Assembly: GCA_009692115.1 (NCBI GenBank)
Contig: SHZU01000004.1
Span: forward strand, 1-64,000
Direction: 5' to 3'
From: Gemmatimonadota bacterium
Lineage (GTDB): Bacteria > Gemmatimonadota > Gemmatimonadetes > Gemmatimonadales > GWC2-71-9
DNA length: 64,000 nucleotides
A program made the translations under genes and the position numbers. Positions 23,054 through 28,960 of the stretch are shown in pieces. Every line of letters begins with the position of its first letter. Positions within the stretch are counted from its first letter, which is position 1. The notes below the pieces were generated by a model. It had not been told where the DNA came from and did not search any database. It saw nothing but the letters and a program-made list of their open reading frames with translations.

Positions 23054-24397
23054 TTGTCCGACGAACTCAAGCCAGAGCTGGGCCTTCTCGACGCGACGAT
23101 GATCAACGTCGGCACCATGATCGCGTCGTCGATCTTCTTGGTGCCGGCTTCGATCGCGGCCTATTTCAGCGGCGTGTTCCCGACGATGTTGGTGTGGGTC
23201 GTCGGGGCGGTGGTGTCGCTCTGTGGGGCGCTTTGTGTGGCCGAGCTCGGCGCCGCGATGCCGAGAGCCGGCGGGCAGTTCGCTTGGCTGAAGCGGATCT
23301 ACGGGCCCGTCTGGGGTTATCTGTACGGCTGGGCCGGTTCGGTCATCATCAATCCCGGCTCGGTGGCGGCGGTGGCGGTCGGGTTCGCGACCTACCTGGC
23401 GTATTTCATCCCCATGGGGGCCGTCGGTGTCAAAGTGGTGGCGGTCGCCTCGATCATGGGGCTCACCGTCCTCAACTGCTTTGGATTGAAGCTCGGTGCC
23501 CTGATCCAGAACATCTTTACCATCGTAAAGATCGCGGCCGTGATGGGGTTCATCGCCGCTTGCTTCTTGATTCCGGGCGGGTCGGCGGCCAACCTGCAGC
23601 CATTCTGGACATCCGAACCGATCGGAAGTCTGGCGGCCCCATTCGGCGCGGCCATGGTGCTGGTGCTCTACGCCTACGACGGATGGATCGAGATCACGTA
23701 CGTCGGTAGTGAAATGCGGCGGCCTGATCGTGATATGCCGCTCTCGATCATTCTGTCGACCGTCCTGGTGTCCGTGCTCTACATCGGCGCGGCCGTGGCG
23801 TTCACCTACGTGTTGGGTCATACCGCGGTCGGCCGGTCGCCCCGGGTCGCCGCCGACGCGATGACGGTTGTGCTGGGAACGGCCGGCGCGGCGTTGATTA
23901 CGACGGCGGTCCTGATGTCGACGTTAGGCGCGAATAACGGGATCATCCTTACCTCGGCCCGGATTCCGTTCGCCATGGCCAAGGACGGCCAGTTCTTTCA
24001 ATGGGCCGGGCAGGTAAGTCCGACGTACGCCGTGCCGGTGAAGGCGCTCGTGGCGCAAGGGGTGTGGAGTTCGCTTTTGGCCGTAAGCGGCACCTACAAT
24101 CAATTGGCCACCTACGTGGTGTTCGTGAGCTTCCTGTTCTACGGGATGTCCGCGGCGGGGGTGATCCTCCTCCGGAGGCGGGAACCGAATCTTCCCAGGC
24201 CGTACCGGGCCTGGGGGTATCCGCTCACGCCGATCGTGTTCGTGGTGTTTGCGGGCTATCTGATTTGGGACACCATCAAGCAGCAGCCCGTGGATTCGGC
24301 CATCGGGCTCGGCCTGCTCGGCGTGGGCCTGGTGTTCTACTACGCTCTGGGCTGGAACCGGGCCCCGGTTACGGAGTCGTCCCCATCAACGCCTTGA
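23054..24397 (+). CDS. APC-superfamily amino-acid permease
   Basis: 447 residues with about twelve membrane helices. The N-terminus (LGLLDATMINVGTMIASSIFL) holds the APC substrate/sodium-site motif on helix 1, and the YAYDGWIEITYVGSEMRRPD segment is typical of LAT/basic amino-acid antiporter-like members. It probably imports or exchanges an amino acid or amine. The start is TTG at 23054 with GAGG a few bases upstream. It lies 13 bp after the Rieske oxygenase and is likely co-transcribed with it. The 3' end overlaps the convergent DUF2231 gene by 29 bp. Confidence 0.87.
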   Translation: MSDELKPELGLLDATMINVGTMIASSIFLVPASIAAYFSGVFPTMLVWVVGAVVSLCGALCVAELGAAMPRAGGQFAWLKRIYGPVWGYLYGWAGSVIINPGSVAAVAVGFATYLAYFIPMGAVGVKVVAVASIMGLTVLNCFGLKLGALIQNIFTIVKIAAVMGFIAACFLIPGGSAANLQPFWTSEPIGSLAAPFGAAMVLVLYAYDGWIEITYVGSEMRRPDRDMPLSIILSTVLVSVLYIGAAVAFTYVLGHTAVGRSPRVAADAMTVVLGTAGAALITTAVLMSTLGANNGIILTSARIPFAMAKDGQFFQWAGQVSPTYAVPVKALVAQGVWSSLLAVSGTYNQLATYVVFVSFLFYGMSAAGVILLRRREPNLPRPYRAWGYPLTPIVFVVFAGYLIWDTIKQQPVDSAIGLGLLGVGLVFYYALGWNRAPVTESSPSTP

Positions 24398-25211
24398 TGG
24401 CTTGGTCAATCCGCTCGGCCGCCGTGGGGTTGGCGGCCTTGAAGGCTTCAAGCACCGCCCGGGCCGAGTCGACAGAACCGGACGCCTTGTAGGCGTCGGC
24501 GAGCAGGAAGACCTTCCGGAACTGGCTCCGCCGGTCGTCGCCCGGGTCAAAGGCATGGAGGGCCACCAGCGCGCCCGCGGCATCCTGCCGGTCTTTGATC
24601 TGCGACTCGATGACGGTGAGTTTCACGGTCAGGTCGTTAGGCATCCGGCGGGCCAACTCGTCGATCAGGCGCGCGGCCCCGTCTGCGTCACCGGCGGCCC
24701 GATCGGCCATGGCCCGGTTGTAGAGCCCCGCCACCAGCAAACGGGTCACGTCGGTCGTGTCGCCGGAGCGAAGCCCCGGGCCCCCCGCGTAGCTGTAGAC
24801 CAGCTCGCCCCCATGTTCTCCGGCCTCGTAGAGCGCGAACACCGCCCCGATGCCGGCCAAACCAGAAACTAGCCGGAGTGCCGCAGCCGACTTGTGCTTC
24901 CTGAACGCCAATCCGATCAGTTCGATTGCCCCGACGAGGAGCAGCATGTTGCGGGCCCGGTTGCCCCATTCCTCGTGCTCTTGGACTGCTTTGACCGCTC
25001 CGGGGATTCTCTCAACCGGTCCATGGGCTTGGTCACCCGATTCGGCCGTGGCATATCCGACGGCTCCGGCCGCGATGAGCATGGCCGCGGCCGCGGAGTT
25101 GGTCCAGCCGGCCTTGCCCGTGAGCGAAATCAGCCGGAACAACACGCCGACGATCCCGAGCACCATGGCAAAATGAACCAGTTGCGGATGAAAGACAGCA
25201 ATATCAGGCAT
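24369..25211 (-). CDS. DUF2231-type membrane protein with TPR-like C-terminus
   Basis: 280 residues. The first half has four hydrophobic helices beginning FHPQLVHFAMVLGIVG, the histidine-bearing motif (HPxxVHF) of DUF2231 proteins, which are thought to be haem-linked membrane proteins. The second half (about 150-280) is soluble, helical and TPR-like (LLVAGLYNRAMADRAAGDAD, AYKASGSVDSARAVLEAFKA). The fusion of the two is the odd point; it may scaffold a periplasmic complex. It starts 26 bp before the stop of the TonB-dependent receptor (25237) and is read in the same direction, so it probably belongs to that transcript. Confidence 0.75.
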   Translation of the reverse strand: MPDIAVFHPQLVHFAMVLGIVGVLFRLISLTGKAGWTNSAAAAMLIAAGAVGYATAESGDQAHGPVERIPGAVKAVQEHEEWGNRARNMLLLVGAIELIGLAFRKHKSAAALRLVSGLAGIGAVFALYEAGEHGGELVYSYAGGPGLRSGDTTDVTRLLVAGLYNRAMADRAAGDADGAARLIDELARRMPNDLTVKLTVIESQIKDRQDAAGALVALHAFDPGDDRRSQFRKVFLLADAYKASGSVDSARAVLEAFKAANPTAAERIDQAIKALMGTTP

Positions 25212-25236: not shown

Positions 25237-28200
25237 TTACTGCGGCGGTCCGCCCGGGTCCCGCCGCTGCCGTTGCGGCGCCTTGATCCGGTCCGGCACT
25301 CGGTTCCATTGGTCGGTAGTCAAGATACCCTGAATCGCCTTGAGCGCCCAAGCGCTGTTGGCGCGGACCGATTCCAGCACCGGACGCATCGACGCGAGCA
25401 TCGACCCGGGATCGGGATTCGGCCCCGCCTTGGCAAGTTCCTTCTGAGCCCGGTCGGCCACGGCTTTGGTGAGCGCCCTGAGCGAGTCCGCGGTGGCTTC
25501 GAGCCGTGTGACCTGGTCGTCCGTGAGATTCAAAGCGATCCGGATTGCGATGACGTCTGCGGCCGGGTTCGGCAACGTGCTGGTCAACCGGGCTACCATG
25601 TCGGCCCCACCGCCGGCCCCGCCCCGCAGCGCGAATTGACCCGGTCCACCGCCGCCCCCCCGCTGGCCGCCCCCGCTGAACTGGCCGCGAAACTGCGCCA
25701 TCAGGTCCGGCCCAATCGTGTACCGAAGCTGAATCCCGACCTGAAAGGGCTGCCGGATCCCGATCGTGTTGGTGCCGTTGGCCCCGAACCGCTCGTTGAC
25801 CGCGTAGGTAAACGACTGGGTGGCCGGGTTGAAGCCCTGTACCACCAGCAAGGTCGGGTCCGGCCGCACCGCCTGACCCCACCCCTTGAGGTTGTCCTGG
25901 CCATGGAACAGTTGATCGACGCCGATCAGGAAATTGGTGGTAACGAGCGACATCGTGAGCCGGCGGTCGAGTCCGAGAACGGCCGGCCGGAAGTTGAGCT
26001 GAAAGTCCACCGAGGTCTGCCACGGTCCCTGGCAACTGTTGCGGTCCGCAATCCGGCCCAGCTGCCTGTTGAGACAGGCGACCGCTCCGCCCGAGGTGGC
26101 ACCCAAGAGCCGGGCCATCCCGGCCGCTACCGCGGGGTCGGCAGCCGAAGCGCCATAGACGAAGGCCCGGTCGTTCCGGAGTCCGTCCCCGTTCACGTCC
26201 GATCCGACCACCGGAGTGTAAGGCGATCCCGAAGTGAAGCGGGTAATCGTCGTCAACTCGAGGCTCCGGGACACCGGATAGGTCATGGTCAAGAGGAGCG
26301 AGTGCTTCCGCTGGAAATCGGAGGTGGCCCACTCGCGGACGTTCGGGTCGCCCGCCGTGGTGGCCCCGCTCAAGCCCCGCTGGGCGCCGCCGAACGCGAA
26401 GGATGATTGATCCCGCGACCGATTGAACGTGTAGGACGCATTGAAGAACGCCCCGTTCCGGGTCACGCCGTTGGCTGAGAGCGTCAGCTGAGTCGACCGC
26501 GACCGGAGCTCGGAGTCGAAGACGAGGACGTTGCCGTACTCAACCACCCTGCGAGAGGCAGCCAGCGGAATCGATCCGGTTCGGGGGTCAATGGCCGGGA
26601 TCGGCACGAACACCGGCCGCTGCTCCGCAACCAAGGTGAATTGGGCGGCGCCGAGATTGAGATCCCGGACTCCGAATTGGCTCCGGCCTAACGCGTGGCT
26701 CAACTCCGCGCCGTAGGTAATCAGGCCGAACCGGCGCTGCACGCCGAGCGAGGTTCGGACCGCTCGTGGGGCGGTGAAATCGGGGTCGAACCCGGTGATC
26801 GACGGACTCCGACTCGGGACGCTCGGCCCGGGCCCGCCGCCCACGCAGGAGGTGGGTATCGACGCCGGATCGGCCCGATAGGCGTGCCAGTCGGGGGGCG
26901 GCGCGTTGGCGCCGATGCAGACCAATTGTGCCTCCGAGCCCGCGAAGCCCGACGCCGCCTGGGCCGACGAGAACAGACTGCCGGGGGCGGGGCTTCGGAA
27001 CTCGCCGATCCCGCCTCGGACCACCAGTTTCGGCGGCCCGTCCTCCGAGCGAATGAACCAGGTGAAGCCGATCCGGGGGCTCACTCGCCACTCCGTTGGC
27101 CACCGGTCGGTCCGGATTCCGAAGAGCGACTCGGCCGCCGGATTCCGGGCTGGGGCGCCGCCGTAGACGGCCCCTTCGAACCGGGCGCCGTAGGTGAACT
27201 GGAGTGCATCGGACAGCTGCCAGGTGTCGGCGGCGTACAGCGCCATTGCCGTTTGATCGGTGGCCCGGATCGTCGGCGCCAGGGTCCGGGTATAGCTCGC
27301 CGGCCGGCCCGCTTCGAGGTCGGCCAGCGAACTATAGGTGTAGGTCCCGAATCGATTCTGGGTGGCGTCGGTTTCGCTGCTGGCCCGGTTGAACAAGCCA
27401 CCGAGCTTGATCCGATGGGCCCCGTTGCCGGAGATCAGGCTCAGTTCATTGGTGGCTTCGAACCCGGAGCCGCTCGATCGTTGCGGCAATCCGGGCAAGC
27501 CCCCGAAGGTCAGGTTGGTGGCCCCGCGGACGTCGTCGAGATCGGACACCACCTGGACTCGGCCGGCCGGCAACGCGGTTTCCAGCGGGGAGTTGGAGGT
27601 CGAGGACGATCGATAGGCCCGGAACTCGTTGATGACCGTGGCGCCGAACCGGGAGTTGGCGGTCAGCATCACGCCGCCGCTCTTCTGCGAGGAGCGGGTG
27701 TCGAACGCCGGCACCGACAGTTGGCCGAACCGGGTCGGCTCCTGCCGGTTGCCGCGATAGTCGCCGCGGAGCGTAATGGTATGACCTTGGGTGACGATCC
27801 AGTCGAGCCGGAGCAAGGACGAGACGTCGTCAGTGTGGCGACTGCCCTTGGCCAAATCGCTGTTGACCGGTACGCCGAGGGTGCCGAGCAGCCCCAACAA
27901 CCGGTCGGCGGAATCCGGCGCGACCCCGAACCGCTGCAGCGTGGCCGGGGCGGCCGACAAGAGGGTCTGCAATTCGTCGCCCCGGAACCGGCCGAGCCCG
28001 GAGCCGAAGGCAAAGAGCTTGTTCTTGATCAGCGGGCCGCCGAAACCGAACGACACTTGGTGCTGGTTGAAGCCGGTGGCGAACGCGTCGTCACCCGACT
28101 CCACCGTCAGGTCCTGGTCCCGGAGGCCGTAGTTGATGGTACCCTGGGTTTGGTTGTTGCCCGAACGCGTGGTGCTCGCCACCAACCCGCCGCTGAATTG

Positions 28201-28875
28201 GCCCCGGGCGGGGTCATAGCTCGACGTAATGACCCGGGTATTGCGGACCGCATCCTGGGGAACCGAGGCGCCGCCGAAGGTCAGACCATCGAGCGTGACA
28301 GCGTTGGAGGTGGGCCGCTGGCCCGCCACCGAGAAGCCGCCCGGGGTCGAGTCATTGCCGGTAATCGAAACGACCCCCGGCACCAGCGTGGCGAGGAGCG
28401 TCAAGTCGCTGGCGTCGATCGGGAGCCGCTGGACCTGGTCGGTGGTGAGGTTCCGTTCAGTGGCGCCCGGGCTTGGCGCCTGGTTGCCGGGACCCTGAGG
28501 GCGCCGGGCGGCCACCCGAAGCTCCTCGAGCTGGACCGGGGTCGAGCTCAGCTTGACGTTGGCGACGATCCGGTCCTCGTCGGCCTGGCGGACAATCGTT
28601 CGCTGGACGGGTACCATCCCGATGAAGCGGACCGTGAGCCGGTACTGGCCGCTCCCGTCAGGAAACAGAATCGTGTAGCGCCCCCGGGCATTGGTCTTGG
28701 TGGAGCGGGTGATCTGGGTTTCAATGGAGAGAATGGTGACGACGGCATCGGCCAGGGGGTGGCCCGATTCGTTGGTGACGATGCCGGTGATGATGTCGGT
28801 CGAGGAGGCCGCCTGGGCCGCAAGGGGGGCACCGAAGGCCAGGGACACGAGCCAGCAATAGATCAATCTCGACAT
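25237..28875 (-). CDS. TonB-dependent receptor with N-terminal carboxypeptidase-regulatory domain and C-terminal LTxxQ helical domain
   Basis: About 1212 residues: signal peptide (SRLIYCWLVSLAFGAPLAAQA), a CarboxypepD_reg-like beta-sandwich (about 28-105: IITGIVTNESGHPLADAVVT), a plug domain (about 140-240, with VTLDGLTFGG), and an outer-membrane beta-barrel ending near PFQVGIQLRYTIG (about residue 1075). A glycine-rich linker follows, then about 105 residues with LNLTDDQVTRLE and ILTTDQWNRVPDRI, two LTxxQ motifs as in Spy/CpxP periplasmic chaperones. The start was set at ATG 28875 for the signal peptide; 28905 and 28896 are alternatives. Imports an unknown ligand; the DUF2231 gene lies downstream. 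Confidence 0.85.
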   Translation of the reverse strand: MSRLIYCWLVSLAFGAPLAAQAASSTDIITGIVTNESGHPLADAVVTILSIETQITRSTKTNARGRYTILFPDGSGQYRLTVRFIGMVPVQRTIVRQADEDRIVANVKLSSTPVQLEELRVAARRPQGPGNQAPSPGATERNLTTDQVQRLPIDASDLTLLATLVPGVVSITGNDSTPGGFSVAGQRPTSNAVTLDGLTFGGASVPQDAVRNTRVITSSYDPARGQFSGGLVASTTRSGNNQTQGTINYGLRDQDLTVESGDDAFATGFNQHQVSFGFGGPLIKNKLFAFGSGLGRFRGDELQTLLSAAPATLQRFGVAPDSADRLLGLLGTLGVPVNSDLAKGSRHTDDVSSLLRLDWIVTQGHTITLRGDYRGNRQEPTRFGQLSVPAFDTRSSQKSGGVMLTANSRFGATVINEFRAYRSSSTSNSPLETALPAGRVQVVSDLDDVRGATNLTFGGLPGLPQRSSGSGFEATNELSLISGNGAHRIKLGGLFNRASSETDATQNRFGTYTYSSLADLEAGRPASYTRTLAPTIRATDQTAMALYAADTWQLSDALQFTYGARFEGAVYGGAPARNPAAESLFGIRTDRWPTEWRVSPRIGFTWFIRSEDGPPKLVVRGGIGEFRSPAPGSLFSSAQAASGFAGSEAQLVCIGANAPPPDWHAYRADPASIPTSCVGGGPGPSVPSRSPSITGFDPDFTAPRAVRTSLGVQRRFGLITYGAELSHALGRSQFGVRDLNLGAAQFTLVAEQRPVFVPIPAIDPRTGSIPLAASRRVVEYGNVLVFDSELRSRSTQLTLSANGVTRNGAFFNASYTFNRSRDQSSFAFGGAQRGLSGATTAGDPNVREWATSDFQRKHSLLLTMTYPVSRSLELTTITRFTSGSPYTPVVGSDVNGDGLRNDRAFVYGASAADPAVAAGMARLLGATSGGAVACLNRQLGRIADRNSCQGPWQTSVDFQLNFRPAVLGLDRRLTMSLVTTNFLIGVDQLFHGQDNLKGWGQAVRPDPTLLVVQGFNPATQSFTYAVNERFGANGTNTIGIRQPFQVGIQLRYTIGPDLMAQFRGQFSGGGQRGGGGGPGQFALRGGAGGGADMVARLTSTLPNPAADVIAIRIALNLTDDQVTRLEATADSLRALTKAVADRAQKELAKAGPNPDPGSMLASMRPVLESVRANSAWALKAIQGILTTDQWNRVPDRIKAPQRQRRDPGGPPQ

Positions 28876-28960
28876 GTGCTTGCTAGTACGAGGCATGGGG
28901 GCCATTCGTTGACGAGTGTCCTTGACGGGCCGGGGGCGGCGGCCTCTAATTCCCCCGCGA

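Follow-up and report, generated by a model that had tools for sequence, protein, structure and literature searches.

A predicted C-terminal LTXXQ (Spy/CpxP-type) domain on an Oar-like TonB-dependent transporter of Gemmatimonadota

The stretch of DNA analysed here (the window) comprises 64,000 nucleotides from a Gemmatimonadota bacterium (contig SHZU01000004.1 of assembly GCA_009692115.1). On its reverse strand it encodes an Oar-like TonB-dependent transporter (TBDT) that continues beyond its last barrel strand through a glycine-rich linker into a helical tail with two LTxxQ motifs. The initial annotation, made from the sequence alone, had described this gene as a receptor fused to an LTxxQ domain, and the open reading frame (ORF), the linker and both motifs are indeed present, with the fusion retained in frame in relatives. 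The start given there, 28875, corresponds to Met 11 of the complete ORF, and its 1212 aa correspond to residues 11–1222 in our numbering. The features of the receptor are as follows.

25237..28905, minus strand: TonB-dependent transporter ORF, 1222 aa, likely start at 28875 (Met, residue 11)
28810..28875, minus strand: signal peptide, residues 11–32, MSRLIYCWLVSLAFGAPLAAQA, judged by eye
28549..28791, minus strand: carboxypeptidase regulatory-like N-terminal domain PF13620, residues 39–119, E 3.1e-15
28507..28530, minus strand: putative TonB-box-like strand LEELRVAA, residues 126–133, from its position behind the N-terminal domain and from alignment
25996..27840, minus strand: beta barrel PF25183 (OMP_b-brl_4), residues 356–970, E 6.1e-49
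25711..25749, minus strand: last barrel strand PFQVGIQLRYTIG, residues 1053–1065, with the internal beta-signal-like QVGIQLRY
25609..25710, minus strand: short helix and glycine-rich flexible linker, residues 1066–1099; predicted local distance difference test score (pLDDT) below 50 at mature residues 1046–1073
25261..25608, minus strand: LTXXQ (Spy/CpxP-type) helical domain, residues 1100–1215, from profiles and predicted structure
25513..25527, minus strand: first motif LTDDQ, residues 1127–1131
25294..25323, minus strand: second motif LTTDQWNRVP, residues 1195–1204 (LTTDQ proper 1195–1199), W and P near-invariant across fused tails

The N-terminal PF13620 domain scores above its cut-off (56.7 bits vs 32.3), as does the PF25183 barrel, for which a second search of the receptor gave an E-value of 3.4e-44; the plug domain PF07715 is matched weakly (15.0 bits vs a cut-off of 23.9). 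The full-length model of the mature protein (1196 aa, 48 sequences; pLDDT 81.8, predicted template modelling score 0.77) has a TBDT-like barrel with its last strand at residues 1029–1038, followed by the leash (1046–1073) and then by helices. Foldseek aligned this model over nearly its entire length with TBDT structures such as YddB (E 2.4e-29) and FusA (E 3.8e-28), and a search of solved structures by sequence with the profile of the whole receptor returned no match. The succession of a carboxypeptidase regulatory-like extension, putative TonB box, weakly matched plug and large barrel resembles that of Oar from Myxococcus xanthus (PMC6434023). A domain of the same kind (PF13715 in SusC) also precedes the TonB box of the SusC-type transporter Bt1763 (PMC7782687), but SusC has a SusD lid partner and is a member of TIGR04056, a family for which the window protein scores 26.3 bits against a threshold of 368. 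The same genome encodes another PF25183 receptor, which lacks a tail and ends in GAKYLF with a terminal aromatic residue.

The plug region of the window receptor contains a third such motif (LTTDQ, residue 153), which indicates that a lone LTxxQ can arise by chance. The Pfam family PF07813 (LTXXQ) recognized 48 of the 68 tails in alignment A3 at E 0.01 or better and 19 of the 21 in alignment A1 at E 1 or better. Across 61 genomes (the window's own and 60 relatives) its curated cut-off was exceeded by fused receptors in G003 (E 1.8e-8), G055, G059, G056, G045, G047 and G051, the matches lying inside receptor frames of ~1,200–1,400 aa. A profile of the tails was also compared with one of standalone LTXXQ proteins, built from 18 of 22 Gemmatimonadota frames (L186, L188, L190 and L206 excluded) and trimmed around the motif pair; the two aligned with a probability of 98.5% (E 2.9e-15) across 98 columns in which both motifs coincided, while 30 column-shuffled controls gave at most 1.1% and the reversed profile 0.9%. 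The motifs lie 68 residues apart in the window tail, compared with 73 in Spy and CpxP and 60–82 (mostly 70–76) in the 18 standalone proteins. The fused tails differ from the latter by a W after the second motif, present in 66/68 vs 0/18. Profile evidence thus places the tail in the LTXXQ (Spy/CpxP) family, as the initial annotation had proposed from the motifs. The same genome also encodes a free LTXXQ protein (G000:C3:91467-91748, locus L142; a 172-aa frame), which the profile of the fused tails does not detect at E 1e-3.

Searches with the whole protein against the 61 genomes revealed full-length orthologues with the tail at 44–70% identity, many of the best matches reaching the end of the query. 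The window tail aligns in frame with those of 20 relatives (30–58% identity), and around the second motif L, Q, W and P are invariant; among the 68 tails, the Q of the first motif is conserved in 97%, and the Q, W and P of the second in 100%, 97% and 100%, respectively. At residue 1123 (25537-25539), before the first motif, the window has Ile, as do the nearby L003 and L005, whereas 94% of relatives have Asp. Of 395 genomes searched in the phylum, 239 have a match to the A1 tail profile with an E-value of 1e-3 or lower; they all fall in the same class, and this unsorted count may include free LTXXQ proteins among its weak matches. Most of the best listed matches are open frames of ~1,200–1,400 aa. 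One scan of genome contigs covered the best 80 of 188 relatives.

Among 81 complete receptors (after removal of identical and of incomplete barrels) 74 are tailed, three from Gemmatimonadota and the Bacteroidota outgroup L161 are tail-less, and three are cut by contig ends. Hence 74 of the 77 complete Gemmatimonadota receptors with a readable end carry the tail in frame, a share that is overstated because the receptors were fetched with queries containing the tail; L060 and L023 are counted here as single shortened tails. The tail-less frames L024, L092 and L109 stop 5–19 residues past the barrel match, and L103, in which the barrel is incomplete, also lacks a tail. In a FastTree phylogeny, whose root depends on the single long-branched outgroup, the tail-less receptors are nested among tailed ones, with three changes in total including the outgroup, which suggests that the sampled family had the tail from the start and lost it later once or twice. 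The ratio of nonsynonymous to synonymous substitution rates (dN/dS, NG86 method) of the tail is 0.09–0.44 in 10/10 pairs, with some dS values near saturation and a very small dS for L020-L066; for the window and L003 it is 0.24, equal to that of the receptor part. These ratios indicate that the tail is under purifying selection, and its distribution indicates that the fusion is an old and widespread trait of the sampled receptor family, which the initial annotation had overlooked.

In some receptors the barrel is followed by a tandem pair of LTXXQ domains (L096:306-4385, L106, L151:1348-5535 and L153:633-5060). L094:1514-4650 has its receptor part and its tail in separate, overlapping frames, which is probably due to an assembly frameshift, and L038, L043, L051 and L082 are split likewise. 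L148, L149 and L156, short open frames considered as standalone tails, were rejected because contig ends truncate them. A tblastn search of 72,556 plasmid records with the tail gave matches only in Gemmatirosa; the plasmid-borne receptor of Gemmatirosa kalamazoonensis KBS708 carries the tail.

The helical tail of ~115 residues behind the glycine linker was also modelled separately with AlphaFold2 from the 68 sequences. The helical part has pLDDT values mostly of 83–98 and includes two long helices (77–108 and 114–142 in the numbering of the model), and the two motifs fall at 75 and 143. The tail is therefore predicted to be folded, its helices carried on a disordered leash, in agreement with the initial annotation, for which a disordered tail would have spoken against a fused domain. 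VIA-align placed a designed bundle first (Z 11.2) and found CnrX chains at Z 7.7–8.2 (rmsd, root-mean-square deviation, 2.9–3.3 over ~100 residues), although by the tool's own warning Z values of this size are common among helical bundles. Spy and CpxP are not among the Foldseek and VIA-align rows shown, which is uninformative either way, and searches of solved structures with the tail sequence gave only unconvincing helical matches. Since the tail lies behind the last barrel strand, the topology of TBDTs would place it in the periplasm beneath the barrel, on the side where the initial annotation had put it. That annotation had also considered a folded tail to be at odds with a C-terminal end recognized by the beta-barrel assembly machinery (BAM), which now appears overstated: QVGIQLRY, which we take to resemble the beta-signal consensus, precedes the tail, so the usual biogenesis signal is presumably not broken by it. 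OmpA provides a precedent for a barrel with a periplasmic C-terminal domain.

A second type of protein combines the two ends of the receptor without what lies between them. The first case came from a short-frame match (L147), and five more with the same layout were then fetched. These proteins of ~250 aa comprise a signal peptide (judged by eye), the receptor-type N-terminal domain, the TonB-box-like strand and the tail, with neither plug nor barrel.

L147:3651-4412, plus strand: barrel-less gene
L163:3144-3917, plus strand: barrel-less gene
L164:2633-3391, plus strand: barrel-less gene
L165:2652-3410, plus strand: barrel-less gene
L166:3648-4421, minus strand: barrel-less gene
L168–L175: further barrel-less genes

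PF13620 was found in 5/5 of them (best E 8.3e-15) and PF07813 in 1/5 only (E 0.046), while the tail profile matches them with E-values of 1e-17 to 1e-27. In the alignment, the TonB-box-like strand reads LxxVxVRx in the receptors and LSxVEIxG in the barrel-less proteins, in which the tail starts 20–25 residues later. An alignment search of 288 genomes of the order revealed full-length matches in eight, all belonging to genus g35 (19 genomes), and one fragment in G093. The frame is intact in 7/8; in G387 (L170) it is stopped ~30 codons early, with intact copies in sister species. The dN/dS ratio is 0.10–0.215 in 28/28 pairs. Both halves match tailed receptors, no single receptor clade being clearly nearest, and the neighbours are housekeeping-like ORFs (by eye) with no receptor among them. 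By its domain composition, the barrel-less protein keeps everything that the receptor shows to the periplasm besides the plug and the barrel. Its apparent purifying selection suggests that the two periplasmic ends can work without a barrel, which speaks against a role confined to the receptor's own barrel and favours one that the two ends share.

Thus both ends of the receptor are expected to be in the periplasm, one with the carboxypeptidase regulatory-like domain and the TonB box, the other with the LTXXQ domain on its glycine leash. Membership in the LTXXQ family suggests polypeptide binding, and Spy is described as binding and protecting outer-membrane proteins (PMC8546600). We tentatively propose, rating it at somewhat less than an even chance, that the tail is a putative periplasmic polypeptide-holding or partner-binding module at the mouth of the receptor. 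As a tethered module it would hold an unfolded or partly folded chain, or a periplasmic partner, beside the plug, at the time when TonB opens the plug and jointly with the N-terminal domain. The chain could be an incoming peptide or protein, or an outgoing one as proposed for Oar; PopC, a protease, depends on Oar for its secretion, although its transit through the barrel is not demonstrated in that work (PMC6434023). A bolder version, which we consider improbable, is that the N-terminal domain, TonB box and LTXXQ domain of Oar-type receptors form one periplasmic TonB-linked holdase unit that feeds polypeptide chains to the plug or takes them over from it, and that some Gemmatimonadota have released this unit as a soluble TonB competitor or client carrier.

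Several observations weigh against a polypeptide-holding or partner-binding tail. The window's own tail falls short of the PF07813 cut-off (15.0 bits vs 24.3; E 0.041). Compared with single E. coli sequences, the tail profile gave weak probabilities only, 4.3% for Spy, 2.1% for CpxP and 2.2% for ZraP, where unrelated proteins gave at most 0.7% and shuffles at most 1.3%. A Foldseek search with the tail model returned nothing below E 1. The fused tail is only slightly basic, with a mean charge of +1.3 vs +4.8 for the standalone proteins. The relatives L024, L092, L103 and L109 indicate that the transporter can do without the tail, and clustering of neighbouring ORFs at 81 loci revealed no recurrent partner gene, the largest clusters covering at most 15 loci once the receptor cluster and its opposite-strand shadow ORFs are set aside.

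We nevertheless favour a holding or partner-binding module over the alternatives. The first of these, which we regard as rather unlikely, is that the tail is a regulatory end that binds an inner-membrane sensor, an anti-sigma factor or a Ton component in the manner of CpxP or CnrX, the barrel-less protein being a soluble competitor or regulator. That protein does retain the periplasmic parts of the receptor, TonB-box-like strand included, and CnrX chains are among the VIA-align matches, but such matches are common for helical bundles and a designed one leads. No widely recurring sensor, sigma or anti-sigma gene lies near the receptor at the 81 loci, where one sigma-factor-like cluster (its example judged by eye) was found in seven. 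It is also unlikely, to a slightly greater degree, that the tail acts as a chaperone of its own receptor, shielding the very large barrel on its way to BAM with no role in transport. The binding of outer-membrane proteins by Spy, described in PMC8546600, and the fusion of the tail to the C-terminal end of a barrel protein of ~1,050 residues would suit such a role; however, purifying selection also maintains the tail in the barrel-less protein, which has no barrel to fold, and tail-less relatives have barrels of like kind and size.

That the tail is a passive spacer or a cell-wall tether without specific binding seems decidedly improbable: the glycine-rich leash and the shortenings or losses in L060, L023, L092 and L109 would be in keeping with it, but dN/dS is well below 1 in all pairs, Q, W and P are near-invariant, and both the tandem copies of the domain and the barrel-less protein tell against it. 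The initial annotation had further suggested a metal-sensing module at the receptor exit. Metal handling is a trait of the LTXXQ relative ZraP and of CnrX, a possible structural match; in the tails, however, the best column reaches a conservation of 7% for His, 3% for Cys and 21% for Met among the 68 sequences, of which 36 lack His and 66 lack Cys in the core. With none of these three residues conserved, we reject a metal sensor as highly improbable. An artefact, whether frameshift, misassembly or translated non-coding sequence, can be dismissed almost with certainty, as dozens of independently assembled genomes share the frame and architecture and the tail shows purifying selection.

Beside the receptor, 25 bases past its stop, lies one further gene:

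24369..25211, minus strand: DUF2231 membrane protein with a TPR-like part (PF09990, E 2.6e-6)

This gene is possibly co-transcribed with the receptor. It stands beside the receptor in one other genome only, G003 (66% identity), and is probably not part of the receptor system. Directly upstream of a tailed receptor and divergent from it, L158:2094-2741 (minus strand) encodes a protein that matches LTXXQ weakly (E 0.0017) and whose N terminus resembles a signal peptide. Rfam gave no match in the window.

Like the window tail, Spy and CpxP have two LTxxQ motifs, and the profile link to them runs via the standalone Gemmatimonadota LTXXQ proteins, but they are soluble and free-standing, each with a signal peptide of its own, whereas the window domain is fused to a receptor. 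CnrX and NccX possibly share its helical arrangement (Z 7.4–8.2), but they are metal sensors and the tail has no conserved metal ligands. Among TBDTs, FpvA carries an N-terminal signalling domain. N-terminal extra domains are well known in this group (PMC6434023, PMC11658791); a survey of 34,893 TBDTs distinguishes five N-terminal architectures, the carboxypeptidase regulatory-like one among them, and the corresponding sections of the Oar paper describe extra domains at the N terminus only, with no mention of a C-terminal LTXXQ domain such as that of the window receptor (PMC6434023). FecA and FoxA likewise have an extra periplasmic domain, but as presented in PMC11658791 it is N-terminal and serves signalling, whereas the window's is C-terminal and helical. 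Deletion of the N-terminal domain of SusC is dominant-negative for growth, and its function is called unknown in PMC7782687.

Judged by titles and the openings of abstracts, no description of a TBDT with an LTXXQ tail was found in the open-licence literature. A conserved C-terminal domain of chaperone type, predicted to be folded and periplasmic and old across the lineage, thus appears to be an undescribed TBDT architecture. The tail-less relatives L024, L092, L103 and L109 constitute natural controls for the role of the tail, and the barrel-less protein, which couples the widespread carboxypeptidase-like N-terminal domain to the tail without a barrel, offers a handle on the role of that domain. 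If the fused module does bind polypeptides, it would fit the movement of proteins by Oar-type receptors.

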